In this document: positions 66-29,553 of the stretch, in pieces
How the letters are laid out: each line of letters opens with the position of its first letter
How positions within the stretch are numbered: position 1 is the first letter of the stretch
DNA from: a virus
IMG/VR virus record: IMGVR_UViG_3300025674_000109
Location: 1 to 39,931 of that record
Reading direction: 5' to 3' (one strand)
Length of the DNA stretch: 39,931 nucleotides
Program-made: the position numbers and the translations under genes
The notes under the pieces: model-generated
What the model was told of the DNA's origin: nothing
The model's database searches: none
The model's input: only the letters and a program-made list of their open reading frames with translations

Positions 66-3000
66 ATGCCTAATTTTCAACCCAATTTTATTTACTCTCC
101 GTTATACGGTAGTAGATATTTAGGTGGTACCCGAGCACACTCTCCGTCTACTGGTAAGGCAGGGGAAGTAGAAAACGCCTCAGTGCAACGATCATCTACA
201 GTGGGTGGACCTACTTATGTTCCTTCTGATGTAACTCAAGGTCAGCCTGTTGGATGGAGTGGGACAGGAAGAGATCAAAGTGAAGTATCTTCATTAGGTA
301 ATTTTGGATTTGTTCCAATTGATACGGCTAATAGTTTTTTAAACCAAGAAGCTCAAGAAGCTCCAGAATTTCAAGAACAAGAAACAGATAGTTATTTTGA
401 TGTGCCAACAATAGACTCAACAGGATCTTTTCAAGTACCTACTACAGCTACACAAGATATCCCTGCTATAAGTTTTAACTCTGATGATAGTGATTATCAC
501 GATAATTTAGAAAAAAACTACGGGCAAGGTATTGTTGATCCTGATGGATATGAGGCACAATTCTTTAACTTTTTATCAGATTATGGACAAAATCCCCTTG
601 CCCCTGGAGCTATGGTAACTAATTTTCTTAGTGATCAGTTTTTCGACTCTCAAGAAAGAGCACTTGAAGAAGCTGATGATAAATTCCTCAATGCTCCTAG
701 AGGTGTAAACGCTGTTGGGGATCAGTTTGGTAATGTTACTTATGAATGGGATCGTTCTATATATCCTGAAGGTGACGAACCTAATCTAAATCCAAATGAG
801 TTTGGAAAGCTTGTTAATGACATTCAAGAAAAAGGTGGTATAATTACAGGGTTAGATGCCAGTGGTAATATTAATTATATAGATAAGGAAGGCAATCCAA
901 GGCGTAGTCAAAGTACAGGATCAACTATTAACACTAATTTAAAAGATGATGTTAGGGGTTTGTACGAATCTAACCAAGGTCGAGATGACGACGACCCATT
1001 TGAAGGTCAGAATGTTTCTCCTGATACTACACCTCCTAATCCTGCTTCTGGTCCAAGTTATTCTTCTTTTACTCAAGAAGAAAGGGCAGAGCAAGAAGAC
1101 GAAGATCAAGACGATTCTTGGGGTGGTAGTGGTTTTGGAAGAGATGGTAACTACGGTTTTTCAGAAGGTGGGTATATCCCTGCAAGTCAATCAGTAACAC
1201 AAGGAATGTCTATGGGAAATGTAACTAAGTTTACTCAAAAGGATAGGTATGGGAATATGCTATCAATTGAGTTTGATGTTCCTAAGCAAATGGAAATACC
1301 ACATCCAGGGCATCCAATGGGAACAGACACTGTACCTGCATGGCTAACCCCAGGAGAGCGTGTTATGAACGCTGAAGCAGAACGCATGTATGGTCCTATT
1401 CTAAAAGATATGAACGACCAAGGGAGAGCCTTACAAGCGGCACAGGGAGGTACTATTCCTGAGTATGCGGCTTACGGTAGTAAAGTTAAACATAAATCCG
1501 AAGGTGGTGTTGTTTACGCTCAAGAAGGATTATCTCCAGAACAAATGTCAGAGTTGTTAGCAAATCAAGTATTATCTGGTGCATTAGATCCTCGTATAGC
1601 AGAAAATGCTTTAGCTAATATGGGAATGGGTAAAGGTCAAGCACAAGCTGTAATACCTAGCTATGTTCCTAGTAGAGCACCAGATTTAGGTATACCATTT
1701 GTTCCTTCTGAAGTAGATGACGGTATGTCTTCAGCGGCTCCTGCGATAGTGCCTGTTAAAGAAATACCTGATAGAGTAGAAGGAGGTATCCCTTACCCAG
1801 AAATACCTACAACTCCTGGAACTCTTAATGCAGAGCCTCCTCAAAAAGTTGATGATCGTATGTTGTCTTTACGCGAACTATTGGTTAAGCAAGAAGATAT
1901 TCGTAACAAACCATATAAAGATACTGAAGGTAATTGGACTGTAGGTATTGGGCATAAAATTACAGATAAGGCAGTTATTGATCAATTAAATAAAGGCAAT
2001 ATGCCTATTAATTATGATGATAATCAAGTAATGGGAATGTTTGATAAAGACATTGAAACTGCTATGAAGGGTGCAAAAGCTAATTTCTCAGGATTTAATT
2101 CTTACTCTACTAATTTACAAGATGCATTAGTATCTATGAATTTTCAGTTAGGTACTGAAGGTACTCGTAAGTTTAAAGATTTTAGATCTGCCTTAGCTAA
2201 AGGTGATTATAAAACAGCTAAAGAAGAACTAGATAATTCTGATTGGGCAAAACAAACACCTTCTCGTGTAGAATATTTAAAAGCAATGATTGATCAAGAG
2301 GCATCTGGAAAGGTAGGTAATAAAAACACTATTACTAGCACTTCTGGACAACCTGTTGTTGATAGTCGCTTTGGTGTTGAGTCTACTTATCAACCTGAAG
2401 GATCTGGAGCAGAAGAAGATTTATCTATCCCTCAACAATTTAGGCAATGGGCGTTTGGAGACACCAGACCTTTACAAGAACGTTGGGATAGTGATATGAC
2501 TATTCCAGAAAATGTTCGTAACTTTGTAACAGGAGATCCAAGATCATTACCAGAGCGTGTAGAAGGTAGTGGTGGAATTTTAGATAATATTTTAAATGAT
2601 ACTCCAGAAAAACGTAAAGCTCGTAGAGATAACTTCACATTACGGGATGATGCGTTAGCTGTTAAAGAAAACGAATTGTTGCAAGAACTTGATGTTCTTG
2701 AGGGGCAGAAACAAGGAAGAGTAGGAGGGGCTACAGTACCTCGTCCAGAACAAGAAATACAAAGTGAGTTAGCTGAAGTTCGTCAAACTCGTAACCAACT
2801 TAAAACTGGATTAGTTTCTGGTATGGATGGTCCAGAAGAAGATGAATTACAAGTGACACCACCTTCCCCACCTGAAGTTCCAGAAGTATCTGAAGGTGCT
2901 GATATTCCTGCAAAACCAAAAGCTCCTGCTGTTACAGATGAGAAAAAGTCTGAAGCGGCTCAAAGTCTTATAACAAAAGGTGAAGAAGGTGGAGAGCCTA

Positions 3001-4169
3001 CGCAAGATTCTAAAGAAGTTGAATCTAACTCCACTAAAGCAACACCTGAACAAAAATCAGAAGCTAAATCTTTCTTTGATGAATGGGGTCTTTCTGATCT
3101 ATTTGATAAAAAAGAAATTGGTAAAATGATGGCTTTGTATTTAGGTTCTCGTGCGTTAGGTTATTCTCATAATGGATCATTAAACTTTGCCGCTAAGAAT
3201 TATGTTACTAGTGTTCAAAAGAAAGCTTTATCTGCATCTGCCGCAAAAGCAGAAAGAGAAAAAGCAGTACGTACAATGATTGCTGATGGCAAGATAACAC
3301 CAAAAGCAGGAGCCGCGTATGTTAAAACTGGTAACTTAGCATACCTTGATGCAGGTTCAGGTAAAGGTACAAATACAGGTGATTTTAAAACTTACTATAA
3401 AAATGGTAAACAATATCGTGCAGAAAAGATAAAGTTCCCTAATAAAACTGAAGCATGGGTATTAGGTAATGGTGATGTTATTGATCACACTTATCATGAA
3501 GATGCTTGGAGAGTCCCTAATACAAAAGAGTATAGGGATGCTCGTGCTAAGTTTGTTAAGGATAACAGAGCTACTTTTGAATCTGTAATTAAAAATGCTA
3601 AGGGTGATGAGGAAAATGTTTCATGGACTAAATCTATGGCATCCATTACTCCTGACAAAGCGGCTAGAGACTTTTGGGCATGGGCGGCTTCTACAGGAAG
3701 AGACCCAGATAGTGATGCTACTCTTCAAATAAGAGACTCTGCGTTTAGGCAATTAGTTGAAGATGCTAAAAAAGAAAAGTTTCAAATTACTTCTTTAGAG
3801 CCTTATCTTGAATCTGAGCTTTATCGTGAAAGTTCAGGCAGACCAGATTTATTTATGTTAAACTCAGAAGCAGTTAATGGAAATAAAGCTAGTCCAAAAT
3901 ATGTAGATCAAGATAAAATGAATATATTGTTTGCTAAAATTGATAGAGTTGCTAGAATGTCAGGTCGATATGAAGGTCAACCTTCTATTACTATAAGGCA
4001 AGATATGTTTAACAGAGCAGTTGCTGAATGGGCTAACGAAGATAATAAACAAATAGTTGACATATATAAGGATGCTGATACTCCCGATGAGGGAACTACT
4101 GGTTTCTATAAATTTGTAGATTACTTATTAGATGTACAACAAAAGAAGCTATCACAAAATACTCAATAG
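66..4169 (+). CDS. Giant virion (ejection) protein with T4-type lysozyme domain, 1367 aa
   Basis: This is probably an internal or ejected virion protein that cuts peptidoglycan during DNA entry, comparable in size and role to T7 gp16. A phage-lysozyme (GH24) domain lies at about residues 600-745. It matches the T4 lysozyme active-site stretch: E610, then D619 in KPYKDTEG, then T625 in WTVGIGH, with the spacing of T4 E11/D20/T26. Upstream (about 425-460) is a GTDTVPAWLTPGE motif often seen in large virion proteins. Around residues 860-930 is a charged, coiled-coil-like segment, followed by a Pro/Glu-rich linker to about 1000. The remaining N- and C-terminal parts are unrecognised. The start has a good RBS (AAGGAG). 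It is the first of three consecutive giant genes. No free endolysin is seen in the window, so this domain is the only visible muramidase. The lysozyme call is firm; the ejection role is inferred. Confidence 0.85.
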   Translation: MPNFQPNFIYSPLYGSRYLGGTRAHSPSTGKAGEVENASVQRSSTVGGPTYVPSDVTQGQPVGWSGTGRDQSEVSSLGNFGFVPIDTANSFLNQEAQEAPEFQEQETDSYFDVPTIDSTGSFQVPTTATQDIPAISFNSDDSDYHDNLEKNYGQGIVDPDGYEAQFFNFLSDYGQNPLAPGAMVTNFLSDQFFDSQERALEEADDKFLNAPRGVNAVGDQFGNVTYEWDRSIYPEGDEPNLNPNEFGKLVNDIQEKGGIITGLDASGNINYIDKEGNPRRSQSTGSTINTNLKDDVRGLYESNQGRDDDDPFEGQNVSPDTTPPNPASGPSYSSFTQEERAEQEDEDQDDSWGGSGFGRDGNYGFSEGGYIPASQSVTQGMSMGNVTKFTQKDRYGNMLSIEFDVPKQMEIPHPGHPMGTDTVPAWLTPGERVMNAEAERMYGPILKDMNDQGRALQAAQGGTIPEYAAYGSKVKHKSEGGVVYAQEGLSPEQMSELLANQVLSGALDPRIAENALANMGMGKGQAQAVIPSYVPSRAPDLGIPFVPSEVDDGMSSAAPAIVPVKEIPDRVEGGIPYPEIPTTPGTLNAEPPQKVDDRMLSLRELLVKQEDIRNKPYKDTEGNWTVGIGHKITDKAVIDQLNKGNMPINYDDNQVMGMFDKDIETAMKGAKANFSGFNSYSTNLQDALVSMNFQLGTEGTRKFKDFRSALAKGDYKTAKEELDNSDWAKQTPSRVEYLKAMIDQEASGKVGNKNTITSTSGQPVVDSRFGVESTYQPEGSGAEEDLSIPQQFRQWAFGDTRPLQERWDSDMTIPENVRNFVTGDPRSLPERVEGSGGILDNILNDTPEKRKARRDNFTLRDDALAVKENELLQELDVLEGQKQGRVGGATVPRPEQEIQSELAEVRQTRNQLKTGLVSGMDGPEEDELQVTPPSPPEVPEVSEGADIPAKPKAPAVTDEKKSEAAQSLITKGEEGGEPTQDSKEVESNSTKATPEQKSEAKSFFDEWGLSDLFDKKEIGKMMALYLGSRALGYSHNGSLNFAAKNYVTSVQKKALSASAAKAEREKAVRTMIADGKITPKAGAAYVKTGNLAYLDAGSGKGTNTGDFKTYYKNGKQYRAEKIKFPNKTEAWVLGNGDVIDHTYHEDAWRVPNTKEYRDARAKFVKDNRATFESVIKNAKGDEENVSWTKSMASITPDKAARDFWAWAASTGRDPDSDATLQIRDSAFRQLVEDAKKEKFQITSLEPYLESELYRESSGRPDLFMLNSEAVNGNKASPKYVDQDKMNILFAKIDRVARMSGRYEGQPSITIRQDMFNRAVAEWANEDNKQIVDIYKDADTPDEGTTGFYKFVDYLLDVQQKKLSQNTQ

Positions 4170-4180: not shown

Positions 4181-7100
4181 ATGGTTGACATTGATATATT
4201 TGCAGATGCACCTACTGAAGGGTTGGCTCTTGGCGATACAGGGTTATCATCATATGATGGTGATACTTGGTATAATAAAGAAGGTAAGGGGTTTAGACTT
4301 CAAGGTGTAGATGCTTTAGAAGTAGACACCTTTAGTAAACAATCTGGTGAATTAGGCGGTCAAGCTCAAAAAGAAGCAATTGTTAAATTAGCTAACGACA
4401 TGGGCTTTACTCGTGTAGTTTACACAGGTGAGATGGATACCACTGGAAACCGTGAGATAATTAGACTAGAAGATTCTGAAGGAAGGGATTTTTCTAGAGA
4501 GTTAGCAAAAACTAATCTTGGAGAAGTTGCCCCTGGGTTTGATCCTGGGGGACAACTTCAATTTTCTAAAGAGTACCACAGGTTTATTAAATCTTCTCCT
4601 GATTATGAAGAAAGTCCTTTTGAAACAGCTTCAAGAAAAGTAGATGAATATATTGCAGATAACGAACAATATAGTCAGCAATTAAAAGATGCTGTTGTTG
4701 CTAGCCAAGATAAGTCTGATTTTCAAAGAACAGATAGAAATGAGTCAGGTATAGCCCTTAATCAAGAGGGTGTTGCTTGGGATACTGCAATGATTGGTCT
4801 TACAGATAATGCTTGGGGTATGGCTTCTCTGTTAGGGGACTCTTTAGGTATTGAGTCTTTATATGGGGCAGGAGAGTCTGGTGTTATTAGGGCAAAAGCT
4901 AGGATTGCTGACCAAGGAAAAATACTAGTAGACTACAAAGATGTTGATTCTTTTGGTGATGCTGTTCAATACTTAGCTAATAACACAATAATGAGTTTAC
5001 CTTATATGGCTATGATAGCGGCTTCTTCTGTAGCGGCTCCTTTAACAGGTGGTGTTTCCTTACTAGCTCCTGTTAGTATTTACACAGGACAAGCTTGGAA
5101 TGAAATGGGAGAGAAGATTAAATTTACAGACAAAGAAAGAAGTGCTGTAACTGCAATTGGATCTGGTGTTTTACAAGCGGCTTTAGATTATGTAGGTTTA
5201 AAAGGAATCACAGGTAGTACTACAAAAGAATTATATAATAACGCTAAAAAAGAATTAATGAAGAATATGACTTCTACTGAAGCAGATAAGGTATTGACAA
5301 ACGCTACCAAACGTCAAATGCTTTCTTTTGTTGGTGATGTAGGAGTAGAGGCAAAGAAACAATTAAAGTTTAAAAAACTATCTGTTGATTTGTTAAAACG
5401 TTTACGTAATGGTTCTATTTCAGAAGGAGCGACAGAAGGTTTACAAGAAGCAATTGCGGCTATTAGTTCTGATATAGGATCTGAATCTGAAATTAATTGG
5501 GAAGATGTCCAAGAGAGAACTGTTGCAGGAATTGTAGCAGGTGCGGCTTTAGGTGGGGCTTTTTCAATTCCAGGGGCCGCTTCTGATGCCGCGCAGTGGG
5601 CTAACATTGCTTACGGTGTTGATCGAGAAAATCCAAATGATGTAGCCTCTGCTACTAGATACGCTCGTGAAGAAGAAAAGTTAATGGAAAAGAAATGGTA
5701 TGCTAAGTTTCGTAATGACGGCATGTCTAAGAAAGAAGCAAGAGAGGCCGCTAAACAGATGGCTTATGTTCACTCTACTGAAGAAATTGCAGAACATTTT
5801 GGTAACCAAGCACAAGCAAGTCCTTCTTCTGTAGGTATAAACGAACGATCTGCAAAACATGAAGCAGATCAAAAGAAACGAACAGGTAGAGAAGTCATTA
5901 CTGATGCTTTAGGAGAAACCCCTGCTTTGTGGAGAGGTCAAGTTCACCATACATTTACTGAAGAAATTTTACGTAAGTCTAGAACTGCTCGTATGATGCG
6001 AGATATGTTTGGTGGTGGGTTGCAACGTATATTTAACGGTGCAGACTTTGAAAACTTTAAACACCATTTACTTAAAGCGTATAAAGGTTTATTAGGTGAA
6101 GATCCAGATAATCTTTTTATGCAATTAAACAATGGTAAGAGGGCATCTAGAAAAGATAAAGAACGTATTAGTTCTGAAATATATTCTTATGTAGATAAAA
6201 AAGGTAATTTAAATCAAAAAGAAATTGATAAAATTACTGATCCAGCTAAAAAAGATTTAATAACGAAACTAATTGCTTCTTTAAATATATTAGCTGACCA
6301 AATGCATAAAGACCAAAAAGTGTATAACCCTAAATTAGGTAAACTTAAAAACTATTTATTACAATATAAAGCTATTAACAAAAGAGCAGTATATAAAAAT
6401 AGAAGTAAATTTATACAAGCGTTAAAAGATACATATAACTTTTCAGAAGCAGATGCAGTAGAGATAACAAATAAAATTTTAGAAACTGATATGGATTTAG
6501 ATGAAGCGTTTACTGTTACAAAAGGTGGGCCACAACCAATGTCTCATAAACGTAGGACGCTAGGTTTGTCTAAGCAAGATGCCTTATCTGAGTTTTTTGA
6601 AACAGACTTATTTACTAATGTATCAACAGCGGCAAAGTCAGCGGCTAGGTATGTGGCAAATCAAAAGTTTGTAGGGACAAACGGTGGTGTTGTTTCTAAA
6701 ATGTTAGATAAGATGCAACAAGAAGGGCTTACTGAACAAGAGGTAAATAGAATTGCTTTTAGAATGAAAAATTATTTAGACTCAGAATCAGGTAACTATA
6801 AGCGACCAACATCTGAGTTTGGTAGAAAATTACAAAACATTCAAAAAAGTTTTATGCTGTTTACTATGTTTGCAGGTCTTCCTTTATCGACAATCTCTTC
6901 TTTTGTGGAAGTAGCATTAGGATTTAGAGGTTTAACTAGAGAACAAATCTTTGGACAAAAAGGTCAAGAAGGTGGGTTATCTAAGATAGGCAAAGAGTTT
7001 GCAGGTATGATTAGTGCAGGTATGACAGAAATTACTAATGCTTCTGGTATTACTAACAAGCCTAGAACATACGCTACTGCAGGTCGATCTATACTTAATG

Positions 7101-8053
7101 ATATAGGATTTTATGAATGGGATGTAGGTGCGGCCACAACTACAGGTGTGTTAGAAACTCATTCTTTTCATCAAAAAATTGCTGAAACTTACTTTAAAGT
7201 AATTGGTTTGCAAGGATGGACTAACTTTAATCGTGCGACTCGTGCGGCTATTGCGGGTGATTTTATTGCTGACAATCTTTTTATTCTTGGCAATAGAGAT
7301 CCTAAATCTAAAACAAGAACAAATGAAGAAAGAGAAGCAGAGGAAAAACTACGCAATTTAGGACTTGATGTTTCTAATAGTGGTGTGAGAGACCTGTTAA
7401 CTTTATTAGCAACAGGTTATATTGAACCAGAAAAAGAAGCTAGAGTACTATCTCAATTAAGAGAAGCACAATTTAGTTTTGTTAATGAAGCTGTTGCACT
7501 GCCTAAAGCGGCTAACAGACCTTTGTTTTATTTAGATCCAAGGTTTGCATTACTTAACCAATTCCAGGGTTTTATGTCTACCTTTACAGCGAATCATATT
7601 CCTCGTTTGTGGAATGAATATATTAAACGTGGGTCACCCGCAATGAAGTACAATACGTTTGCTATGATGGCGACTATGATTATGCTTGGATTTGCATCTC
7701 AATACTTAAAAGATTTAGTGAAGTATGGAGAAACTAGTCCTTATTTAGATGAAGCTGAGTTAATCCGTAGAGGTGTTTTATCTAGTGGATTAGCAGGAAC
7801 ATCTGAACGTATTATTGAACAAGTGTTTCCTATTTATGAAACCCGTTCTAAAAATGCAGGAGAGTGGGCTTGGAATACAGTATCAGGAGAGTCTCCATCG
7901 CTGTCTAACTTAGCAAGGTATGGTCAAAGCATAAGTCATGCTGTTAAAGGTGAAATGCCTGAAGCAACTTGGGATTTTTCTAAAGCGGCTTTTGGTCCTT
8001 TAACTAACGTAGTAGAAAACATATACAACAAATCAGATAAATGGGAATTTTAA
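4181..8053 (+). CDS. Giant virion protein with N-terminal staphylococcal-nuclease-like domain, 1290 aa
   Basis: The N-terminus (about residues 22-120) reads like a staphylococcal nuclease/Tudor-type nuclease fold. DGDT is at 26-29, FRLQGVDALE at 38-47 corresponds to FRLLLVDTPE of S. aureus nuclease (R39, D44, E47 matching R35, D40, E43), and TTGNRE places R91 near catalytic R87. The rest is a long, mostly helical protein with hydrophobic stretches near 265-305, 430-460 and 1155-1175, as expected of an ejection protein that crosses or lines membranes. It starts 11 bases after the lysozyme protein with RBS GGAG. Its opening residues DIDIFAD recur as DIDLFAD near the start of the following protein. 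The nuclease fold is a good motif match. Activity, and whether the protein is ejected, are inferred. Confidence 0.7.
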   Translation: MVDIDIFADAPTEGLALGDTGLSSYDGDTWYNKEGKGFRLQGVDALEVDTFSKQSGELGGQAQKEAIVKLANDMGFTRVVYTGEMDTTGNREIIRLEDSEGRDFSRELAKTNLGEVAPGFDPGGQLQFSKEYHRFIKSSPDYEESPFETASRKVDEYIADNEQYSQQLKDAVVASQDKSDFQRTDRNESGIALNQEGVAWDTAMIGLTDNAWGMASLLGDSLGIESLYGAGESGVIRAKARIADQGKILVDYKDVDSFGDAVQYLANNTIMSLPYMAMIAASSVAAPLTGGVSLLAPVSIYTGQAWNEMGEKIKFTDKERSAVTAIGSGVLQAALDYVGLKGITGSTTKELYNNAKKELMKNMTSTEADKVLTNATKRQMLSFVGDVGVEAKKQLKFKKLSVDLLKRLRNGSISEGATEGLQEAIAAISSDIGSESEINWEDVQERTVAGIVAGAALGGAFSIPGAASDAAQWANIAYGVDRENPNDVASATRYAREEEKLMEKKWYAKFRNDGMSKKEAREAAKQMAYVHSTEEIAEHFGNQAQASPSSVGINERSAKHEADQKKRTGREVITDALGETPALWRGQVHHTFTEEILRKSRTARMMRDMFGGGLQRIFNGADFENFKHHLLKAYKGLLGEDPDNLFMQLNNGKRASRKDKERISSEIYSYVDKKGNLNQKEIDKITDPAKKDLITKLIASLNILADQMHKDQKVYNPKLGKLKNYLLQYKAINKRAVYKNRSKFIQALKDTYNFSEADAVEITNKILETDMDLDEAFTVTKGGPQPMSHKRRTLGLSKQDALSEFFETDLFTNVSTAAKSAARYVANQKFVGTNGGVVSKMLDKMQQEGLTEQEVNRIAFRMKNYLDSESGNYKRPTSEFGRKLQNIQKSFMLFTMFAGLPLSTISSFVEVALGFRGLTREQIFGQKGQEGGLSKIGKEFAGMISAGMTEITNASGITNKPRTYATAGRSILNDIGFYEWDVGAATTTGVLETHSFHQKIAETYFKVIGLQGWTNFNRATRAAIAGDFIADNLFILGNRDPKSKTRTNEEREAEEKLRNLGLDVSNSGVRDLLTLLATGYIEPEKEARVLSQLREAQFSFVNEAVALPKAANRPLFYLDPRFALLNQFQGFMSTFTANHIPRLWNEYIKRGSPAMKYNTFAMMATMIMLGFASQYLKDLVKYGETSPYLDEAELIRRGVLSSGLAGTSERIIEQVFPIYETRSKNAGEWAWNTVSGESPSLSNLARYGQSISHAVKGEMPEATWDFSKAAFGPLTNVVENIYNKSDKWEF

Positions 8054-8065: not shown

Positions 8066-11000
8066 ATGGCTAAAAGAGTATCAAGTAGTAATCAAGGTAA
8101 TGATTTACTTCTTCCTGCCTCTGAACAATTAGAGGAAAAACTTAAAGCAGGTACTGTAGAATCTATAGGTTCTTTTGATATTGATTTGTTTGCTGACAGC
8201 ACTCCTTCTGTGGAGCAGATACCCTCAGAGGTTACACCCACAGAGGAGACTTCAGTTGGTCCTGTATCTCCAGAAGATATATTTTCAGTTGAAGTAGATA
8301 AGATAGATTTAGAAACTGATAATGAACAGTTACAAACTTTAGTAAATTCAGATCGTGAACTTTATGAAATGGATTTATTTGATAGGCAAGAAACTGTTGC
8401 CACTGAAGAAGCAGAGGGTCGTGATACTAGACGTTATAATATTCAATACGTAGAGCAAGAGCTAAATGAAGATGGAGGTTTGGTTCAACGGGCAGATAAT
8501 TTTGCAGATGCGATTATGTCCCGTAATCTTGATTTAGGAGCTTTCTTTCATACCGGAAAAGACTATGCAGAAACAGGAATGTTAAAACCTGATTCTCAAT
8601 TAGGTGTTATCGGTCAATCTATGGTTAAGTTAAAGGCAACCACTTCTGATCCTGAGTTACCTAATCCTGTTTTAAATAAACAATTTTTACGCATTGGTTC
8701 TTTAGTTACAGAAGATTTTTTAGCTGATGAAACTTTAGGAGAATCTAGAGTTGAACAAGCTAGAGAAAAAGAAGCTAGAAAAAAAATGTTTAATTCAAGT
8801 CCTGATGTAATTGAGCAAACTTTACTTCAGGATGATATAGACATTCGATCATCATTAGATAACTACACTATAACTAAAGCTAGGGGTAATCGTACTCTGG
8901 GAGATAGAATTGCTAGAGAATGGGGCTTGGTTAATAATACAGATGTAAAGCTAAGTCGTGAAGAATCTGAACTGCTTGGGGATGCGTTTAAAGAATTATA
9001 TTATGAAGTAAACAAAGGCCCTGCGGATGCCCCATATATTATACGTAGATCTCGCTCTAAAGGATATTATGATGAGGGTGGAAACTTTGTTGTCTTAGGA
9101 AAAGATGACGAAAAAGCACAAACCTATTTTGAAATTACAAAATTAGGTCAAGATGTATTTGCATCGTCTAGGCAAGTTCGTAACCAATACTTTCCTAAAG
9201 AACATATTGAACCATTAACTACCCCTTTACAGGACACTAGACCACCTAGATCTCGCGATCAACGCAAAAGGAATGTAAGGTATTCAGGTCAAATAAGAAC
9301 TGGAGAGCCATTAACTAATGATGATTTGCTAGACGCTAAGGCAAATTTAGAATCTGTCCCCCATGTAGTTATACCTCGTAGAGAAAAAATTGTTTACTCT
9401 ACAATGCTTATAGGTTTAGCTAGTAAAGCAATGGAAGGTAAAGTTCCTAATGAAGTTATAGAAATGAGTAAAGAGATTAATGGTTTTGGTGAATCTAAAG
9501 AAACAGAGTTTAAAGCAAGGGCTGTAATTGCAAATAAGAAGGGGGAATATTATAGTCCTTCAGATAATATGCGAGAGCTTCAACGTACTATTAGTCAATC
9601 TGTTTACGGCATGGCAAAGCATAGAAATAAAAAAGTATATTTAACTTATTTTATACAAGCTTTTAACGGAAGATTAACTCCAGAGCAAACTCATTTTAAT
9701 CCAACAACATCTAAAACAATTAGATTTGTTACAGGTAACCCTAAGTTAGTTAAGTTTTATCCAGGGCAAAATAGCCAGTTAGAAAGAAACTTAAAAGAAA
9801 TGTACTCTATGATGATGGTTAAATTTAATGATGTTGTTACGAAAGAAAGGGGAGATGCAGGAGACTTAGTACCTAGTCAACGTATAAGAAAATTTGAAGA
9901 TGCCTTGCCTAGTTTAGCAAAAGCAGGTGGTATTTTAAAAGCCGCTTTAGAAATGACAGATAGGGATGCAGACCTTATTGCAGATGCAATCCGAAAAGGA
10001 TTACCTATGGACCATCCAGACTTTCCTATTTCATCTGTCAAAGCTTTAAACTTAAATCCTGAAACGGATCTTCAAATTATTTCTTCTATTACAGCTAAAG
10101 GAGAAGATGGTTTAGCTCTTATCGATGGACTAATAGATGTCCATGAGTATTATAATGTTTTGCAAAATAATAAAAACAATCCGACTAATCCAATACAATT
10201 TACTACTCAGTTCAATGCGTACATTGATGGTAAAACTAACGGTATTGCATCAAATGCTATGCAATTAGGTTTAACTGAAATGGCTAAACGGACAGGAGTT
10301 TTAAGATCAGAAGACTCTTTATATGCATTAGATAATAATATAGATATACGAGATGAGTTAGCAAACGCATTAACGGCACACATAGATTCAGATAACGGTG
10401 GGTTACCATTAAAAGGTGTAGTAGCTGATAGTTTAATTACAGAGGCTACTGAAGTAATGAAAAGAGTGCTTACGTATCGCCCATTAAACAAAGCTACAAC
10501 TATGACATTTGGTTATGGTAAAGAGATGATGGGTTTTAAAACTGATATAGAAAATGCTTTAGAGTTATTAGCTGTTAGTGATCCTAGTATCAAAGATAAG
10601 TTAGATAAGCTTAGGGCAGGATGGTATAAAGGTAAAAAATATAATCAACCATTAGAAAAAGTATTAGTTGATGCATCTTTTTCTACGTATTCTGATAAGC
10701 TGATTGAAGTCATAACTCCAGAAGGTATTCAAGCTAGACAGATTATGTACGGCACAGCTATGCTACATGTAATGATGGATGAGTTGTTTGAGTTTAACGG
10801 ACCTACAGGTTTCCCATTAAGGTATGGGGGTATGGAGTCTACAGGTATAGAAAAAGCCACAGAGCAATCATATAAGATATCTCAAAGGTTAAACCCTAGA
10901 CCTGAAGATCCTAAACCTACTACTAAGATTAAAGCAATAAGTTATGAAACTCGACCTACGTCTGCCGCTGTTACTGAAACTAAGAAAGGTCCGTATGTAG

Positions 11001-11794
11001 GCCAAGGAGCTTTAGGAGGTTCTATTCCTGGGCCAGTTCAAGCGATTGATGCGGCCACTGTTGCAGTATCTGTTATCGGAAAATCTTGGGTGGATATGAC
11101 TAATGCCACTGAAGGTGTCCCTTATGTTCATACAATTTATGATGCTTTTAAATTTGATGCTCACAATTTTAATGTTGGTGTTAAAGAAGTTAATACAAAT
11201 TGGAAGAATTTAAGTTTTGCATGGAGCTATTTAGAAGCCGCGCAAGGATCTCTAGAAAAAGCTACTCAAAACTTTAATGATAAGCTTAAAGACTTAAAGC
11301 CTAAAGACATGATAGACATTTCTATGGCTTCTCCTTTTAGGCAAATTGGGTTGTTTTTAAACCCAATAGAAACTAAAGAAGGTATTCAAGTACATAAACA
11401 TTTAATGAGTTTCTTTAGACGAATGCATCCTGTCGGGACTAAATCAGAGTTTATACAAGATGAAGTTCAACAGTTTATTAATGATCTTGTCGCAAGAGGT
11501 GTGGTAAGAACTTATATCGATACAAATACTAAAGAACTTCGTTATGGTTATACTGCACAAATAAAAAAGGAAGACTTACTTTACATTGTAAACACAATAA
11601 GAGAAAGTTACATGTCTTCTATTACTGGTGTTTCAAAACCTTTTGATAATTTCTTTAAAGATTTTATTAAAGATACTAAAAAACGTCAAGCTAAATTAAG
11701 GCGTTTAATTGATGAGCAAGAAGCAAAAGGTCGTAAACTTGTAGAAGCAGGTAAAGAAGATGACTTAATGATTGCTCAATACTACGCGCATTAA
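8066..11794 (+). CDS. Candidate virion-associated single-subunit RNA polymerase, 1242 aa
   Basis: All core motifs of the T7/N4-vRNAP family occur in order. The GR motif is in FNGR536, followed by FNP as in T7 WRGR...FNP. Motif A is IDGKTNG with D721. Motif B is RPLNKATTMTFGYG with R805, K809, M813 and Y817, spaced exactly like T7 R627/K631/M635/Y639. GPTGFPLRY (about 912-920) matches T7 TPDGFPV. PVQAID995 matches the FVHSQD stretch, and motif C is IYD1026AF, with Tyr replacing the T7 His. The polymerase core is roughly residues 500-1130, preceded by about 450 residues of acidic, unrecognised N-terminus. It is the third gene in the block of giant virion proteins, 12 bases after the nuclease-domain protein, with RBS AGGAG. 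By analogy with N4 virion RNA polymerase it could be packaged, ejected and used for early transcription. Family membership is well supported; packaging is inferred from position. Confidence 0.82.
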   Translation: MAKRVSSSNQGNDLLLPASEQLEEKLKAGTVESIGSFDIDLFADSTPSVEQIPSEVTPTEETSVGPVSPEDIFSVEVDKIDLETDNEQLQTLVNSDRELYEMDLFDRQETVATEEAEGRDTRRYNIQYVEQELNEDGGLVQRADNFADAIMSRNLDLGAFFHTGKDYAETGMLKPDSQLGVIGQSMVKLKATTSDPELPNPVLNKQFLRIGSLVTEDFLADETLGESRVEQAREKEARKKMFNSSPDVIEQTLLQDDIDIRSSLDNYTITKARGNRTLGDRIAREWGLVNNTDVKLSREESELLGDAFKELYYEVNKGPADAPYIIRRSRSKGYYDEGGNFVVLGKDDEKAQTYFEITKLGQDVFASSRQVRNQYFPKEHIEPLTTPLQDTRPPRSRDQRKRNVRYSGQIRTGEPLTNDDLLDAKANLESVPHVVIPRREKIVYSTMLIGLASKAMEGKVPNEVIEMSKEINGFGESKETEFKARAVIANKKGEYYSPSDNMRELQRTISQSVYGMAKHRNKKVYLTYFIQAFNGRLTPEQTHFNPTTSKTIRFVTGNPKLVKFYPGQNSQLERNLKEMYSMMMVKFNDVVTKERGDAGDLVPSQRIRKFEDALPSLAKAGGILKAALEMTDRDADLIADAIRKGLPMDHPDFPISSVKALNLNPETDLQIISSITAKGEDGLALIDGLIDVHEYYNVLQNNKNNPTNPIQFTTQFNAYIDGKTNGIASNAMQLGLTEMAKRTGVLRSEDSLYALDNNIDIRDELANALTAHIDSDNGGLPLKGVVADSLITEATEVMKRVLTYRPLNKATTMTFGYGKEMMGFKTDIENALELLAVSDPSIKDKLDKLRAGWYKGKKYNQPLEKVLVDASFSTYSDKLIEVITPEGIQARQIMYGTAMLHVMMDELFEFNGPTGFPLRYGGMESTGIEKATEQSYKISQRLNPRPEDPKPTTKIKAISYETRPTSAAVTETKKGPYVGQGALGGSIPGPVQAIDAATVAVSVIGKSWVDMTNATEGVPYVHTIYDAFKFDAHNFNVGVKEVNTNWKNLSFAWSYLEAAQGSLEKATQNFNDKLKDLKPKDMIDISMASPFRQIGLFLNPIETKEGIQVHKHLMSFFRRMHPVGTKSEFIQDEVQQFINDLVARGVVRTYIDTNTKELRYGYTAQIKKEDLLYIVNTIRESYMSSITGVSKPFDNFFKDFIKDTKKRQAKLRRLIDEQEAKGRKLVEAGKEDDLMIAQYYAH

Positions 11795-11871: not shown

Positions 11872-12070
11872 ACATATATTTCTTCAGTGATTGAAGTATT
11901 TCATTATGTAGTTCAGGTTTTACATCACGATCAAGTTGAGCTTGAATGATATCTTTTGTGTAAGCAAGATTAGGGTCTAACCCAAGTGTCTCACAGACAT
12001 CCATGTCATCATCATTAGTCATCCCGCGTAATGTGTTAATGTTATAGTTCTTACGAGAAGAAGTATTCAC
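11870..12070 (-). CDS. Small protein of unknown function at the end of the leftward operon, 66 aa
   Basis: I do not recognise this protein. It is acidic in the middle (NDDDMD) and helical, ending in LHNEILQSLKKYM. I keep the GTG start because a strong Shine-Dalgarno (GGAGG) lies nine bases upstream, inside the last codons of the RNA polymerase gene, which it overlaps by 20 bases. An internal ATG at codon 17 has a poor RBS. Its stop is inside the T-run of the shared terminator. The overlap suggests translation coupled to the polymerase. Confidence 0.6.
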   Translation of the reverse strand: MNTSSRKNYNINTLRGMTNDDDMDVCETLGLDPNLAYTKDIIQAQLDRDVKPELHNEILQSLKKYM

Positions 12071-14180
12071 TGTGTGTAACCTCCGTTATATCTAGTGATC
12101 CTAGTGTTGGTTGTTCTATTATAAAACTTGTTCCGTTAACCAGACTACGTTCTATAATATCAAAGTAGTTATCGTAGTTGTACATTTCGATAAACTTATC
12201 TTTAGCTAGCTGACATAGGTTATCTACATCACACGCATGGGTAGAAAAGCTATCATGCACTGCACCAAAAGACTCATCCCAATCTGTAATAATATTAGCC
12301 ATATGGCTAGCATCGAGACTATGAATGTAGTTAGGACTAATACCACAAGCAAACCCACGGGGGTCTGGTTTATCTGATATTACTAATCCCACATGTCTTA
12401 CCTGATCTCTCTTACCCACTCCCACGATAGTGCCTAGAACTTTCTCTTGCCTCTCATAAAACTTCTCATAGATTACATAGAATCCAGATGGAGTTATCCA
12501 AGACACAGAGTTATTACCTAGAGATAACACTTCTTGAGCAATTTTTTGAAAGTATCGCATTGTCTGTAAAGGTCCAGGACATACTGCGGCAATGGCTTTT
12601 ACTAGATCATGGGAAAATCCCTTACAATCCTTCTCTGTAATACCATACATAATATCGTACCCTTCTTTACGCAAATCATTATACATGTTTTCTGCGATTT
12701 TCTGAGCACCTGCTGAGTAAGCTCTTGTCATACTCCCACGTTTACTAATACCTTTACGAATATGTTTCATTGGCATAGTGTTAAGAATATCTAGACGATG
12801 TTGATCATGTGTCAACTCAATTAGTTTCTTTGCGGTTTGTACATAGAAGTCTTTGGGTATATCTTCCTTTACTAAGCTAACAAGATTAGCTGTCTGTTGA
12901 TCTTTGGATATAGCACCTAAGTGTTGCCATCCATTGTTTGTACCATCGATTGGTATAGGCAAAGAAGAATGATAAGAAAGACCTGCATTAGTAAACTTGT
13001 AATAGTCTACTAACTCATGGCAAACGGATAGAAAAGACACTGGCTTCTCACAATCAGGAAGAGAGTTAAAGTGTGATACCATTTCTATGAGATCCATATT
13101 GTTCTCAGTCCACAGTTCCCTATCACGTAATGACATTTTATCCACACTGATATCATCTAGTCCTTCATTTGACATGTATGTATAGTAATCATATGTAAAG
13201 TAATCAGGAAGTTCTGATAACTTAAAGCTTTGATTGTAAGAGTTAGCCGCATGTATTTTCATCCAACGTAGTCCTGACTCATCTACTTCTTTTGATTCAG
13301 CAAATAAGAACAATCCTCTTTCGTAATCTGAACCTTGGAAGTTAAGTATTGACTCTCTGTAGTAAATTCTACCTCGATAATCAAAGTCTAGTAATTGATA
13401 AAAAGTTTTATCTTTCAATACTTCTGCTTTACGTTTTGTATAACTTAGCTTTAACTCTTTTGATTTAAGTCTTTCTAACTCTAATGGATCTTCACAAGCT
13501 TCTATTTCTTGTGTGAGATCTACCCCATGAACTGCTTCTAATACTTTTTGGTTAATCTTCCAGGGAGTTTGTTGTAGTTTGTTAGCGGCTTGTATGCAAG
13601 GCATGTCTTTCATAGATAAGAAACAAGTAGCCTCTTCAGCACTCCAACCTTTTACGATTGGATACCTAATATCTAACCCTTGTAACGCAGGATGTTTTTG
13701 CATTAGTGTAGTAATGTCTTTGGGTTTAGTTAGAACAGTCCCACGTAGTCTGTAGGGATCTAATGCTGAAGGAAGCTCAGAGATAAACTCCAAGCCTTCC
13801 TCAGTAAATTCCAATGTATAACTACTATTCTTAATTTTAGGGTATTTTATATCGATGTAACCTAATTGGTAGAATGCCTCTACAAATAAGTCACCTAGTC
13901 TTACTGCATCTTTCCATATTAGTTTGTTATCGAATAGCCTAGATGCTATTTCGTTACCAATACGTGTTGACACTAGTGTTAGTTTAGCAACTCCTGCAGG
14001 ATCTGAAGGAGGGTTGTTGCGTGAGATATAAACTTCTAGGGTATCTAGTGCTACCATACATAGCTGTCCAAGTATAGGGCGAACATCCCCATACCCCTTG
14101 AGAATGCTCACACCAACAGAAGGTTTACCCTTGCTACTAATTTTAGCAACAAGGTAACCTTTTACATTATCTAAACTCAT
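12051..14180 (-). CDS. T7-like single-subunit DNA-directed RNA polymerase, 709 aa
   Basis: This is a phage RNA polymerase that transcribes phage DNA from its own promoters. Core motifs are intact: FDYRGRIYY near 266-274 (T7 DWRGR), motif A IPIDGTNNGWQH with D412, motif B ISKRGSMTRAY with K480 and Y488 (T7 K631, Y639), WITPSGF near 561-567, NYIHSLD near 617-623, and motif C VHDSF with H642/D643. It is about 170 residues shorter than T7 RNA polymerase, mostly N-terminal of motif A, so the promoter-binding N-domain is reduced. The region matching the specificity loop (about 575-605) is short. It starts 8 bases after primase-helicase with RBS GAGGA. Being nearly last in the leftward operon, it is probably made after the early genes and would serve later transcription. 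Identity is secure. Confidence 0.96.
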   Translation of the reverse strand: MSLDNVKGYLVAKISSKGKPSVGVSILKGYGDVRPILGQLCMVALDTLEVYISRNNPPSDPAGVAKLTLVSTRIGNEIASRLFDNKLIWKDAVRLGDLFVEAFYQLGYIDIKYPKIKNSSYTLEFTEEGLEFISELPSALDPYRLRGTVLTKPKDITTLMQKHPALQGLDIRYPIVKGWSAEEATCFLSMKDMPCIQAANKLQQTPWKINQKVLEAVHGVDLTQEIEACEDPLELERLKSKELKLSYTKRKAEVLKDKTFYQLLDFDYRGRIYYRESILNFQGSDYERGLFLFAESKEVDESGLRWMKIHAANSYNQSFKLSELPDYFTYDYYTYMSNEGLDDISVDKMSLRDRELWTENNMDLIEMVSHFNSLPDCEKPVSFLSVCHELVDYYKFTNAGLSYHSSLPIPIDGTNNGWQHLGAISKDQQTANLVSLVKEDIPKDFYVQTAKKLIELTHDQHRLDILNTMPMKHIRKGISKRGSMTRAYSAGAQKIAENMYNDLRKEGYDIMYGITEKDCKGFSHDLVKAIAAVCPGPLQTMRYFQKIAQEVLSLGNNSVSWITPSGFYVIYEKFYERQEKVLGTIVGVGKRDQVRHVGLVISDKPDPRGFACGISPNYIHSLDASHMANIITDWDESFGAVHDSFSTHACDVDNLCQLAKDKFIEMYNYDNYFDIIERSLVNGTSFIIEQPTLGSLDITEVTHSEYFFS

Positions 14181-19953: not shown

Positions 19954-21873
19954 TCAGTGAACATCTGCGTAGCTTTCACCAACTACGTAGTTTCCACCTT
20001 CCATACAAGTAATGTCAAACCATTTGGGAGCTTCTTCAAAAGCTTCCTTTAGGATGACCCCAACTTTATCTGCATCATCTGGATGACAAGTAAATGCCAT
20101 TTCATCGTGATAAAAGATACGTGGTTTAGCTCGTAGTTTAAGTTCCTGAATTTTATCAAGAGCATAAGCTACTGTAAATGCCATTTCATCGTGATAAAAG
20201 ATACGTGGTTTAGCTCGTAGTTTAAGTTCCTGAATTTTATCAAGAGCATAAGCTACTGCGGCTTTACAAGTGATGCCTTCAGCGGCTTGAAGTAAATAGT
20301 TTAAGCATTGATGTTGGCTAGGGACAAAGACAGGTCTACCATCCAATCCTTCGATCCATCCAATACCTTGAGTTAACTGTTTGTTTTCCCACTCTTTTTC
20401 TATTTTCTTCTTTAGTGTGTCCAACCCTTTGATTGCTTTTGCGAATGCATCTTTAGCAACTTTACCAAGTTTAGGGTTACGATAACCACAAAGTACTTCT
20501 CCTAACTTAGCATCTCCACCACCAAACATGTAGCAATACAAGAAGCCTTTAGCAGTTTGTCTGCTTACTGTTGTTCCTGTAGCTTTTGAGAGAGCATCTG
20601 CGTTACGTTGATGCTGATCTCCGTTAATGATTTCATTTGTAAATTCAGGGTTTCTAAGATAGTGACATAATCCTCTAAGCTGATTTCCCGAGCTATCGCA
20701 TCCAACGATGACATCACCTTTGTCTGCCCTGAGAATAGTTCGCATTGGCTTGCCGTAGGAAGCATCAACTGAAGGGAGGTTAACAATGACTTCGTGGCGG
20801 CAACGGAATGACGGAGTTCCGATAGTCCACATGTTTCCGTGGAGTCGTCCATTCTTTACTTTCTCCTTCCATCCTTCAAGGACAGATAAGCGATTACGTA
20901 GAGTGTAGTATTCAGAAATTAATTCACCATCCTTACCAAATGCTTTCAATGAAGTATCCGTAAGTTTTGGCCCCATGTTTTTCCAACTACCATCTGGCAT
21001 TTTCTTTCGTGTGTAATCATCTGGTTCCCACCCTTGAGATAGTAACCATTCTTTAACTAGAGCGATTTGGCCCAAGTCAATTTGATCCACTCTGGACCTC
21101 CGAAAGCTTTGTCCTGGGGGCATAAGGTCCGTGTCCGTTGGTTTGACTTCCCTTCCAAAGTATTCGGATAGTATCCTAACGGTAGTAGCAGAATACGTCC
21201 CGTCCTTTTTAAACTTAGGTGTTTTAGGTTCTTTGTCAATGAATACCTCATGTGTTCCTAGTTTAGGTTCTAGTATACGTTCTATTTGATGCATACGTTC
21301 TACAAACATAGCTTCTGTTTGTTCAGCTAGCTTTTCATCAAAGTTCCAACCATCCCTACGCATCATTACATTGCATTTTGCAATTGATTGTTCGACTTGT
21401 AGTCCACGTTGAATCATTGGATTTTGTTTGTATATTTCTGAATATTCTTTCAGAAGTTTACGATATACCATCAAATTAACTTTACAATCTTGAATACAAT
21501 AGTCTAACATTTCTTGAGAAAACTCAGAAAAGTCATCATATTCAATCTTTTTGTTACCTAGATACTCTCCCCAACCTGCCAAACCATGTTTGTGTGGTCG
21601 TGTATAACGTAGTGTTTGGGACATAACCCAAGTGTCATGTACAGGTTTGTTTAGAAGAGAACTATGAAAAAGCCTATCCAAGGTAGGAATATCATAGCCA
21701 ATAACATTATGGCCGACAAGACGATCAGCGGATACAAGAGTAGCCAATCCGTCAGCGATATTGCTAGGTCCGTATGTTTTGATATCTTCTGTTTCCACAT
21801 CGATAGTAACAATACAATGTACTTTTGTAGCATCTATTCCATCTGCCTCTATATCAAAGAGCAAAGTGCTCAT
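19954..21873 (-). CDS. Family A DNA polymerase (T7-like) with duplicated motif C, 639 aa
   Basis: Replicative polymerase with 3'-5' proofreading. The exonuclease domain has D7/E9 (FDIEADG), D61 (HNVIGYD) and YCIQD ending in D129. Polymerase motif A is CDSSGNQLR (D393), motif B RQTAKGFLY (R438, K442, Y446), and motif C YHDEM. Motif C occurs twice, at H561-E563 and H589-E591, because an 84-bp segment coding for 28 residues is repeated exactly and in frame. Without the extra copy the protein would be 611 aa. A frame extending upstream to a TTG exists, but the ATG at 21873, overlapping the previous stop as TAATG with GGAG upstream, is the natural start. If both copies are real, the palm domain carries an extra helix and hairpin, and activity is uncertain. 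Confidence 0.95.
   Translation of the reverse strand: MSTLLFDIEADGIDATKVHCIVTIDVETEDIKTYGPSNIADGLATLVSADRLVGHNVIGYDIPTLDRLFHSSLLNKPVHDTWVMSQTLRYTRPHKHGLAGWGEYLGNKKIEYDDFSEFSQEMLDYCIQDCKVNLMVYRKLLKEYSEIYKQNPMIQRGLQVEQSIAKCNVMMRRDGWNFDEKLAEQTEAMFVERMHQIERILEPKLGTHEVFIDKEPKTPKFKKDGTYSATTVRILSEYFGREVKPTDTDLMPPGQSFRRSRVDQIDLGQIALVKEWLLSQGWEPDDYTRKKMPDGSWKNMGPKLTDTSLKAFGKDGELISEYYTLRNRLSVLEGWKEKVKNGRLHGNMWTIGTPSFRCRHEVIVNLPSVDASYGKPMRTILRADKGDVIVGCDSSGNQLRGLCHYLRNPEFTNEIINGDQHQRNADALSKATGTTVSRQTAKGFLYCYMFGGGDAKLGEVLCGYRNPKLGKVAKDAFAKAIKGLDTLKKKIEKEWENKQLTQGIGWIEGLDGRPVFVPSQHQCLNYLLQAAEGITCKAAVAYALDKIQELKLRAKPRIFYHDEMAFTVAYALDKIQELKLRAKPRIFYHDEMAFTCHPDDADKVGVILKEAFEEAPKWFDITCMEGGNYVVGESYADVH
20090..20257. 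repeat. Exact 84-bp tandem duplication inside the DNA polymerase gene
   Basis: Bases 20090-20173 and 20174-20257 are identical over all 84 positions. The unit codes for 28 residues, VAYALDKIQEL...YHDEMAFT, comprising a helix and the motif C hairpin. It keeps the reading frame. The absence of any difference means it is very recent or an assembly artefact. Confidence 0.98.
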
Positions 21874-22211
21874 TAGTTGTTTCTCCAATCCTCAATCATT
21901 TTGTTAATATACCATTGACATTTTTCAAGATCTTGTTTAGGTTTTCCTTTATCTTGATGACGCAGTAAATATTTAATTGCATTACCCATACAATAGCTGT
22001 AACTATCTGGTGTAAAAGCATCAATTATATCAATAACTTCCATACCATTTTTATGGTAATGTTTAGGTTTATTAACAATATCCCAATCTTCTTTACCTTT
22101 CATACTACTACCAATAGCCGCATAAAAAGCCTCTGAAGCATCTGCCGCTAGCTCTTGTGGAGAAGCAGTTAAGCTACCTTCAGACCATTTGTCGTAAGAG
22201 TCATTGCTCAT
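21873..22211 (-). CDS. DUF3310 (SaV-like) protein related to T7 gp1.7 family, 112 aa
   Basis: The family signature is clear in the second half: VNKPKHYHKNGMEVIDIIDAF, then YCMGNAIKYLLRH and DLEKCQWYINKMIEDW. Members are widespread in phages, and the T7 gp1.7 nucleotide kinase belongs to this group, so a part in nucleotide metabolism is likely. The first 40 residues are a variable leader. A longer frame starts at 22241, but AAAGAGG sits well placed before the ATG at 22211. The stop overlaps the polymerase start (TAATG), so the two are translationally coupled. Confidence 0.8.
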   Translation of the reverse strand: MSNDSYDKWSEGSLTASPQELAADASEAFYAAIGSSMKGKEDWDIVNKPKHYHKNGMEVIDIIDAFTPDSYSYCMGNAIKYLLRHQDKGKPKQDLEKCQWYINKMIEDWRNN

Positions 22212-22243
22212 ACACATCCTCTTTATGTTTTGAATATCCATTT

Positions 22244-22393
22244 TTAAGTTTGTATTTCTTGTTTAGTTCTACTTGTGGTTTGTTGAACTTGGGTAGAAAC
22301 TTTGCTACTGGATTCTTTTGCAAATATCTTTTTCCAGTTTTCATCGAATTTACCTTTATTAGTTATTGGTCTATATTTAGAACCTTTACTCAT
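22244..22393 (-). CDS. Small basic phage protein, 49 aa
   Basis: Begins MSKGSKYRPITNKGKFDENWKKIF, a layout (SKG, RP, KFD.NW.KIF) I have seen in short proteins of marine podoviruses, with no known function. The tail is Ser/Thr/Gln-rich and probably disordered. It overlaps the end of the upstream 69-aa gene by 8 bases, and its position 33 bases before the DUF3310 start fits the compact operon. Confidence 0.55.
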   Translation of the reverse strand: MSKGSKYRPITNKGKFDENWKKIFAKESSSKVSTQVQQTTSRTKQEIQT

Positions 22394-22595
22394 TGTACAA
22401 ACCTGACATATGTAACTCTACTCTAGTGATAGCTAACTTTAACGCACCCATGGCATTATCTAAAGCTAAAGATTCTAGATCTCCAGTATCGTGTAAATGC
22501 TCTTGAGCTTTATACATATGGTCAAGGCAAGAATTTAATTGATCGTACACTTTACTGTTAATACGTTCTACATTATCATCACTTCTTGTAATCAC
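22386..22595 (-). CDS. Small helical protein of unknown function, 69 aa
   Basis: Mostly one long amphipathic helix or a helical pair (YDQLNSCLDHMYKAQEHL, then ALDNAMGALKLAITRVELHM). The only start that keeps this length is GTG at 22595, with a weak RBS, inside the end of the upstream 65-aa frame. I do not recognise a family. Overlaps of 17 and 8 bases with its neighbours argue that it is translated as part of the chain. Confidence 0.5.
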   Translation of the reverse strand: MITRSDDNVERINSKVYDQLNSCLDHMYKAQEHLHDTGDLESLALDNAMGALKLAITRVELHMSGLYNE

Positions 22596-23707: not shown

Positions 23708-23727
23708 ATGTTTATATTTCTCCTTAT

Positions 23728-23749
23728 GGGGCCGAGCTTGCGAGGCTCC
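23728..23749. repeat. Conserved hairpin element, copy 1
   Basis: GGGGCC and GGCTCC flank the ten-base core GAGCTTGCGA. The element directly follows the stop codon of the 53-aa gene and precedes the RBS of the 128-aa gene. In the plus sense the core can fold as CC-GA-GC-TT-GC-GA-GG, with tandem G-A pairs and a tiny loop. The same core occurs at 28225-28234 and 29400-29409. Confidence 0.6.
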
Positions 23750-23911: not shown

Positions 23912-23919
23912 AATATTAT

Positions 23920-24132: not shown

Positions 24133-24193
24133 TTGTTTTTCCTTGCTTATGTTTTGCATAGTAATTTTATGCATATGCCCGAAAGCCCGTTAA

Positions 24194-28732: not shown

Positions 28733-28758
28733 GTTAGTCTCCTTAGTAGAGTAATAAG

Positions 28759-28783
28759 AACCCCTCTAGTTCCTAGAAGGGTT
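28759..28783 (-). promoter_or_regulatory. Leader hairpin downstream of promoter D
   Basis: On the minus strand AACCCTTCTAG pairs with CTAGAGGGGTT around a three-base loop (11 pairs, one G-T). It lies in the 5' leader of the micro-protein operon, 16 bases before its RBS. One arm belongs to a 20-bp sequence repeated in inverted orientation at 29534-29553. Confidence 0.55.
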
Positions 28784-28790
28784 GCATATT
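28771..28790. repeat. 20-bp inverted repeat, left arm
   Basis: The exact reverse complement of 29534-29553. This arm is in the leader of the promoter D transcript and forms part of its hairpin. Confidence 0.9.
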
Positions 28791-29533: not shown

Positions 29534-29553
29534 AATATGCAACCCTTCTAGGA
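29534..29553. repeat. 20-bp inverted repeat, right arm
   Basis: Reads ATGCAACCCTTCTAGG at its core in the plus sense, exactly inverse to 28771-28790. It lies 200 bases upstream of the terminase gene, so the two copies face each other across the divergent region. Confidence 0.9.

Follow-up and report, generated by a model that had tools for sequence, protein, structure and literature searches.

N4-like phages are known to carry virion RNA polymerases of the single-subunit type. There the chain is about 3,500 residues long, and how its extra domains act in ejection is still under study. Here we compare with these enzymes the gene for P0001, a protein of 1242 amino acids (aa) encoded on a DNA stretch of 39,931 nt from an uncultured marine phage (IMG/VR record IMGVR_UViG_3300025674_000109; this whole stretch is termed the window). 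An earlier note, made from the sequence alone, had read P0001 as a compact virion RNA polymerase, and this reading is supported as largely right by the predicted fold, the invariant active site, the similarity to N4, and the position in the operon. We regard P0001 as a compact variant of the virion RNA polymerase type known from N4, about a third of the size of the N4 protein.

A 1106-aa fragment of the N4 virion RNA polymerase (vRNAP) initiates, elongates, and terminates transcription with the properties of the whole protein (PMC4496689), which makes a compact chain plausible as a complete enzyme. In the full N4 protein, the N-terminal domain binds lipids, and the polymerase is inhibited by the C-terminal domain (PMC12633501). 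An IMG/VR survey of N4-like viruses dropped proteins shorter than 2,500 aa and demanded the motif ExDGxxxG (PMC10654107); because the shorter proteins were discarded, this survey could not have kept the P0001 family. In the open-access literature, no report of compact single-subunit virion polymerases was found.

Two further systems are comparable in part. The tail-tape-fused polymerase of P23-45 is carried in the virion and transcribes pre-early genes, including the gene of a second RNA polymerase (PMC10770324), but it is homologous to cellular RNA polymerases and lies outside the single-subunit superfamily. A single-subunit, Cys-free virion polymerase has also been proposed for the podophage StenR_269 (a putative vRNAP) and for large proteins of Zobellviridae; as presented in the available portion of that source, the proposal is based on size, absence of Cys, and helicity, without motif evidence (PMC10747016).

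Predicted Fold and Active Site of P0001

The gene and the motifs of its product are as follows:

8066..11794, + strand: P0001, candidate compact virion-type single-subunit RNA polymerase, 1242 aa (open reading frame, fold matches, profile match to Schitoviridae vRNAPs)
9668..9724, + strand: GR motif and NPxxxKxxR, residues 535-553 (G535, R536, P546, K550, R553)
10220..10243, + strand: motif A, YIDGKTNG, residues 719-726, with predicted catalytic D721 (invariant columns; strand end in the model)
10478..10519, + strand: motif B, residues 805-818 (K809, M813, Y817, G818), aligning with T7 627-640
11039..11050, + strand: QxxD motif, residues 992-995 (D995 invariant; in register with HSLD of T7-like polymerases)
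11135..11149, + strand: motif C, IYDAF, residues 1024-1028, with predicted catalytic D1026 (invariant; turn between strands)

Residues 200-1150 of P0001 were modelled with AlphaFold2 from 24 sequences (a model residue is the protein residue minus 199), and the resulting model (mean pLDDT 77.4, pTM 0.73) strongly supports the right-hand fold of the single-subunit RNA polymerase superfamily. In Foldseek, the best 50 matches in the Protein Data Bank (PDB) are single-subunit RNA polymerases only (yeast and human mitochondrial, T7, and N4 mini-vRNAP), with E-values down to 8e-14 and a match to the N4 structure 2po4 at 1.2e-10. VIA-align places the yeast mitochondrial polymerase (Z 21.9, rmsd 6.6, 630 residues aligned), T7 (Z 21.7, rmsd 5.2, 521 aligned), and N4 mini-vRNAP (Z 20.3, rmsd 6.8, 647 aligned) within a Z spread of 20.3-21.9, which amounts to near ties; the N4 alignments cover model residues 1 to 916-942, and most of those with T7 elongation structures begin near residue 179. 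Both programs give a match to polymerase structures, the lack of which the earlier note had named as refuting. Its picture of a polymerase hidden in a giant structural protein is not borne out, given that ~900 of the 1242 residues model as polymerase. Within the model, D721 (model residue 522) closes strand 518-522, K809 (610) lies on helix 606-617, which stops just before Y817 (618), and D1026 (827) is found at the turn between strands 822-825 and 828-832. Such a placement is the arrangement expected of the superfamily.

The 1242-aa open reading frame and the motif residues named from the sequence are confirmed (G535-R536, FNP 544-546, D721, T914-G915-F916-P917, D995, and D1026), and the spacing of motif B is exactly that of T7, with R805, K809, M813, and Y817 corresponding to R627, K631, M635, and Y639. 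In an alignment of 52 diverse family members with a mean column identity of 21%, the invariant positions include R536, R553, D721, G722, T724, G726, K809, M813, Y817, G818, D995, and D1026, and P546 and K550 are kept in more than 90% of the sequences. R805, which had been counted among the core residues, is unconserved (R in 30 of the 52, E in 9, K in 5, and D in 4). The GR motif is atypical, as had been pointed out, with AxxGR in place of the DxxGR of T7-type enzymes; G535 is present in 45 of the 52 members, and the D/T position is mostly G or A across the family. The absence of His from motif C is likewise real, with Tyr in P0001, but it is not special to this phage: the N4-type motif C is FDG, and residue 1025 is Y in 38 members, F in 11, M in 2, and H in a single relative (L022, HDA).

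Searches with the single P0001 sequence recover little of this. The Pfam RNA_pol family is matched at E=0.0038 over residues 706-863 (motifs A and B), under the family cut-off; PHROG gives no match, the PDB nothing relevant by sequence (profile search included), tblastn against 50,697 phage records no relative, and a direct peptide-pattern search of IMG/VR no relative either. The PHROG 'RNA polymerase' family is, however, matched by 8 of 17 homologues, with a best E-value of 3.1e-7.

Relationship to N4-Type and T7-Like Polymerases

On profile evidence, the polymerase domain of N4-type virion enzymes appears to be the nearest match to P0001, nearer than the T7-like polymerase of the same phage. 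In hhalign, eight Schitoviridae vRNAP polymerase domains are matched at E=2.3e-9 (Prob 96, P0001 residues 193-736). Against 14 T7-like polymerases, taken from these phages and roseophage CRP-7, the profile comparison yields E=7.4e-5, and motifs A, PTG, QxxD, and C fall in register. The mutual profile match between the Schitoviridae and T7-like sets is merely 0.08, and core alignments joining the N4, T7-like, and P0001 families show 11-15% identity, too low for a dependable tree. A whole-collection tblastn with the family member L128 returned weak matches (E 4e-3 to 6e-3) to eight phage records, exclusively of Schitoviridae type: Vibrio phages of ~75.8 kb, one with an annotated virion RNA polymerase at that place, and the virion RNA polymerase of Escherichia phage Pollock.

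The similarity to N4 extends to individual residues. The initiating nucleotide is bound by K437 and R440 of N4 (PMC4496689), and the N4-family invariant P433/K437/R440 recurs with the same spacing as P546/K550/R553 in the P0001 family. As N4 has TX2GR rather than DX2GR (PMC4496689) and FDG, without His, in motif C, both motif oddities of P0001 point towards N4. N4 E557, which precedes the catalytic Asp by two residues, is matched by Y in 35 of the 52 members and by E in 16, such that Y replaces the E of the N4 ExDGxxxG in most of the family, including P0001.

The features shared with N4 gp50 and other Schitoviridae vRNAPs are a homologous polymerase domain, a DGxTNG motif A, a motif C without His, and PxxxKxxR after the GR motif; as with P0001, the N4 gp50 sequence is free of Cys and its gene closes the structural operon, after those for ejection proteins. 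They differ in length, with 2,842-3,820 aa in Schitoviridae (PMC10654107) against 1116-1426 aa in the complete family members listed, and in the partner enzyme, which is the two-gene RNAPII in N4 and a one-chain T7-like polymerase here. Because of its length and its departure from the strict ExDGxxxG, P0001 is not filed as a member of the gp50 family. With T7 and mitochondrial RNA polymerases it shares the fold and the catalytic residues; it differs from the T7 type in its weaker profile match, its lack of Cys, its place in a structural operon, and AxxGR instead of DxxGR.

Relatives and Genomic Context

The window T7-like polymerase, used as seed, retrieved 45 IMG/VR relatives; in many sufficiently long loci it is adjoined by a convergent P0001 homologue, after which come homologues of the two large proteins that precede P0001 in the window. 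An alignment of P0001 homologues used as query fetched 79 loci, and relatives are encoded in 126 IMG/VR stretches, with three additional family loci in metagenome-assembled genomes. The T7-like polymerase gene is the convergent neighbour of the candidate in 109 of the 109 loci containing the latter, some of which are the same contig fetched twice; as loci fetched via the T7-like polymerase contain that gene by construction, the 79 loci from the candidate's own profile are the fair test. BLAST and tblastn with P0001 and its relatives L049 and L064 found no member among GenBank phage records. The neighbours of P0001 are:

66..4169, + strand: first ejection-type protein, 1367 aa, with a phage lysozyme domain at residues 609-731 (Pfam Phage_lysozyme 1.3e-11); 0 Cys
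4181..8053, + strand: second ejection-type protein, 1290 aa (PHROG virion structural protein 4.5e-22; CRP-7 gp34 2e-27); 0 Cys
12051..14180, - strand: cytoplasmic T7-like RNA polymerase, 709 aa, convergent neighbour (Pfam RNA_pol 4.3e-59); 11 Cys

P0001 is, as first described, the third gene of an ejection-type block and stands apart from the replication genes. It ends the late structural operon, its block being co-directional with the terminase, portal, scaffold, capsid, and tail-fibre genes at 29741-39748. The further T7-like polymerase reported from the sequence is also present, with the correction that it is encoded on the minus strand and is convergent with the P0001 gene. In all relatives of sufficient length, the P0001 homologue lies directly behind two ejection-type proteins, and homologues of the first of these occupy the equivalent place. 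The second also matches structural proteins of KPP25-like phages; in KPP25 and JB8, which carry it, the stretches examined gave no match to three polymerase profiles. The gene order in N4 is alike, with the vRNAP last in a leftward structural operon, convergent with the replication side. All three block proteins (3,899 residues in total) are devoid of Cys, as are CRP-7 gp33-35, 13 of 14 homologues checked, and the N4 vRNAP (3,500 aa), compared with 11 Cys in the window T7-like polymerase and 12 in the T7 enzyme, both cytoplasmic.

A separate family A DNA polymerase gene is encoded at 19954-21888 (-), and an 84-nt exact tandem duplication (28 codons) inside it, at 20090-20257, may be real or an assembly artefact. 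The window ends (1 and 39931) have no terminal repeat, and most of the tail genes that CRP-7 (58 kb) has between its capsid and ejection genes are absent, which indicates that the window is probably an incomplete genome of ~55-60 kb.

A Probable Counterpart in the Cultured Roseophage CRP-7

CRP-7 (MK613349) is a cultured roseophage (PMC6918029), grown on Rhodobacteraceae bacterium FZCC0042, with a syntenic block, in which a T7-like polymerase, gp30 (35.8% identical to that of the window), is followed by the convergent genes gp33, gp34, and gp35. Its gp34 is the homologue of the second ejection-type protein noted above, and gp33, annotated as hypothetical, has a size similar to that of P0001 (1235 aa). 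Neither BLAST nor hhalign finds similarity between gp33 and P0001. The family hidden Markov model (HMM) matches gp33 weakly at residues 774-955, in the right order and just before AIHDALI; a higher score was reached by 1 of 2000 shuffled copies. In gp33, motifs A and B seem to be altered. An AlphaFold2 model from gp33 relatives is unusable (pLDDT 40). From these sequence comparisons, gp33 is probably a diverged homologue of P0001.

Candidate Promoters

Candidate promoters for the T7-like polymerase, and a further repeat, occur in the window:

28754..28790, + strand: candidate T7-like polymerase promoter, CTCTAGTTCCTAGAAGGG plus a 20-nt repeat, directed towards the late operon (exact inverted repeat with 29534-29553)
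29534..29553, - strand: candidate T7-like polymerase promoter, second copy of the 20-nt core, directed towards the replication operon
23733-23745, 28224-28236, and 29399-29411, - strand: CCTCGCAAGCTCG, three exact copies, one directly upstream of a Shine-Dalgarno sequence and ATG

In the first of these, CTCTAGTTCCTAGAAGGG (28754-28771 onward, +) resembles the repeats CTCTAAGTTCCTTATAG in four relatives. The relatives G003, G004, G005, and G012 hold 4-5 copies each of AAGTTCCTTATAG, mostly with CTCT before and GG or AG after, which resemble T7-type promoters, and G009 holds CCTATAGGGACTA three times. Repeats of the CTCTAGTTCCTAGAAGGG, AAGTTCCTTATAG, and CCTATAGGGACTA types would suit the T7-like polymerase as promoters.

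Other repeats were also observed. A G009 repeat similar to CCTCGCAAGCTCG, CCACGCAAGCGTG, is present in four copies, at least two of them upstream of a Shine-Dalgarno sequence and ATG; the three copies of CCTCGCAAGCTCG itself were considered as a common hairpin, but form no good shared one. Three exact copies of AACCGACATCCCAG (24194-24207, 24251-24264, and 27551-27564, -) adjoin leftward genes, and two of the copies closely follow T-rich stretches. In L156 and L158 (G005), TTGCTGTTTCATAAACACTTAACC occurs near both contig ends in four near-identical copies (around 77-91, 524-538, 56925-56939, and 57356-57370), each with a stem of 5 bp and a loop of 3 nt. Between 21.8 and 31.8 kb of the window, sigma-70-like sites are not in excess (25 vs. 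32.8 in shuffles), a count that says little, and terminator-like sites (21800-31800) are threefold over shuffles (15 vs. 4.9).

For P0001 itself, a de novo scan was made for families of non-coding hairpins such as the N4 early promoters. It recovered three hairpins (95, 564, and 4553) in the N4 early region, the positive control, and nothing in T7, CRP-6, or KPP25. Only the long-stem families of two relatives, G006 and G010, were used, since the coding DNA of AT-rich genomes also gives rise to small hairpin families. Genome-wide, G010 has eight hairpins with a stem of at least 7 and a 4-nt loop, four of which share the loop ARAA with compensated stems (GAAAATG/CATTTTC, GTAAATG/CATTTAC, GAAAAATG/CATTTTTC, and GTGAATG/CATTCAC). 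All four are oriented as the early and replication genes; three are at the start of that region, and the fourth is just upstream of a 615-aa open reading frame in the replication region. The G010 hairpins include those at 12969, 13484, and 21427. In G006, 5 of 15 hairpins share AAATTTRY-GWTA-RYAAATTT with compensated inner pairs, all within 21.4-26.2 kb. Both families resemble what N4-like hairpin promoters would look like, with palindromic operators as the alternative.

The same scan gave one small family in the cobavirus CRP-4 (Roseobacter phage, L186, MK613346), where three non-coding copies of GGTAC-ATC-GTACC or GGAAC-ATC-GTTCC with similar flanks lie at 38753, 39648, and 40504. Together with the Cys-free 1455-aa gp39, they may hint at an unrecognised virion polymerase in a phage said to lack RNA polymerase; gp39 (Zobellviridae) has no polymerase motifs and no match to the family HMM.

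Proposed Role of P0001 and Alternative Explanations

P0001 is likely a compact, self-contained virion RNA polymerase, which would be packaged and ejected and would transcribe the early region before the T7-like polymerase takes over. In this proposal, P0001 would be made late and packaged with the two ejection-type proteins encoded upstream, would pass the tail as an unfolded, Cys-free chain, and would refold in the cytoplasm. There it would use D721 and D1026 for two-metal catalysis in transcribing the early region, and the early products would include the T7-like polymerase (12051-14180), which would then act from its own promoters. Polymerase identity is strongly supported. Packaging and early transcription are well supported, although indirectly: the virion assignment derives from gene order, the absence of Cys, and the specific similarity to the N4 virion polymerase, and we infer from the available evidence the packaging, ejection, and enzymatic activity, the promoters read by P0001, and the order of the two polymerases.

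Several observations weigh against this account. The large N- and C-terminal domains of N4 have no counterpart in P0001, and ejection therefore cannot proceed exactly as proposed for N4; here the two large neighbours may take over these tasks, or the tasks may be dispensable. The window contains no hairpin family with stems of at least 5, and among 11 longer relatives just two (G010 and G006) have a stem-compensated one. Other structural proteins of the window are likewise poor in Cys, which makes the absence of Cys supporting rather than decisive.

P0001 could instead be an active second RNA polymerase that stays outside the particle, being made late and working in the cytoplasm, for example on late genes. 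This would equally account for an intact active site, and a late-operon product need not enter the particle, whose inclusion of P0001 we infer. This explanation is unlikely: the phage already has a T7-like polymerase, and the constant place behind two ejection-type proteins, the lack of Cys, the closeness to the N4 virion polymerase, and the N4-like gene order all speak for a virion protein. The location in a structural block, the variable R805, and the seemingly diverged motifs of CRP-7 gp33 could instead suggest a former polymerase that now serves merely as a structural or ejection protein without catalysis. We consider this quite improbable, as the invariance of all other catalytic residues in 52 members at so low a column identity is hard to explain without selection for catalysis. 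Finally, single-sequence searches above cut-offs and the PDB profile search returned nothing relevant, as would be expected if the motifs were chance matches or if P0001 were a polymerase of a different kind or had a structural fold. The predicted fold, the conservation, and the profile-profile comparisons all contradict this, a separate family A DNA polymerase is present, and the invariant residues, the Pfam RNA_pol match, and the PHROG matches argue that the motifs are not due to chance; such an explanation is thus exceedingly improbable.

Implications for Marine Podoviruses

Extending the favoured account of P0001 as a packaged polymerase to its relatives, we tentatively propose, at somewhat less than even confidence, that widespread and almost wholly uncultured marine podoviruses (contigs to ~54-61 kb) use a compact virion polymerase without giant domains, hairpin promoters, and a handover to a T7-like polymerase, with little or no need for host RNA polymerase, and that CRP-7 gp33 represents a far-diverged branch. 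The stem-compensated hairpins of two relatives are candidate promoters for in vitro work, and the cultured CRP-7 opens packaging to a direct check. A natural family one third of the size of N4, near that of the 1106-aa fragment, would show what packaging, ejection, and early transcription need, and would extend the virion-polymerase strategy to many ocean phages.

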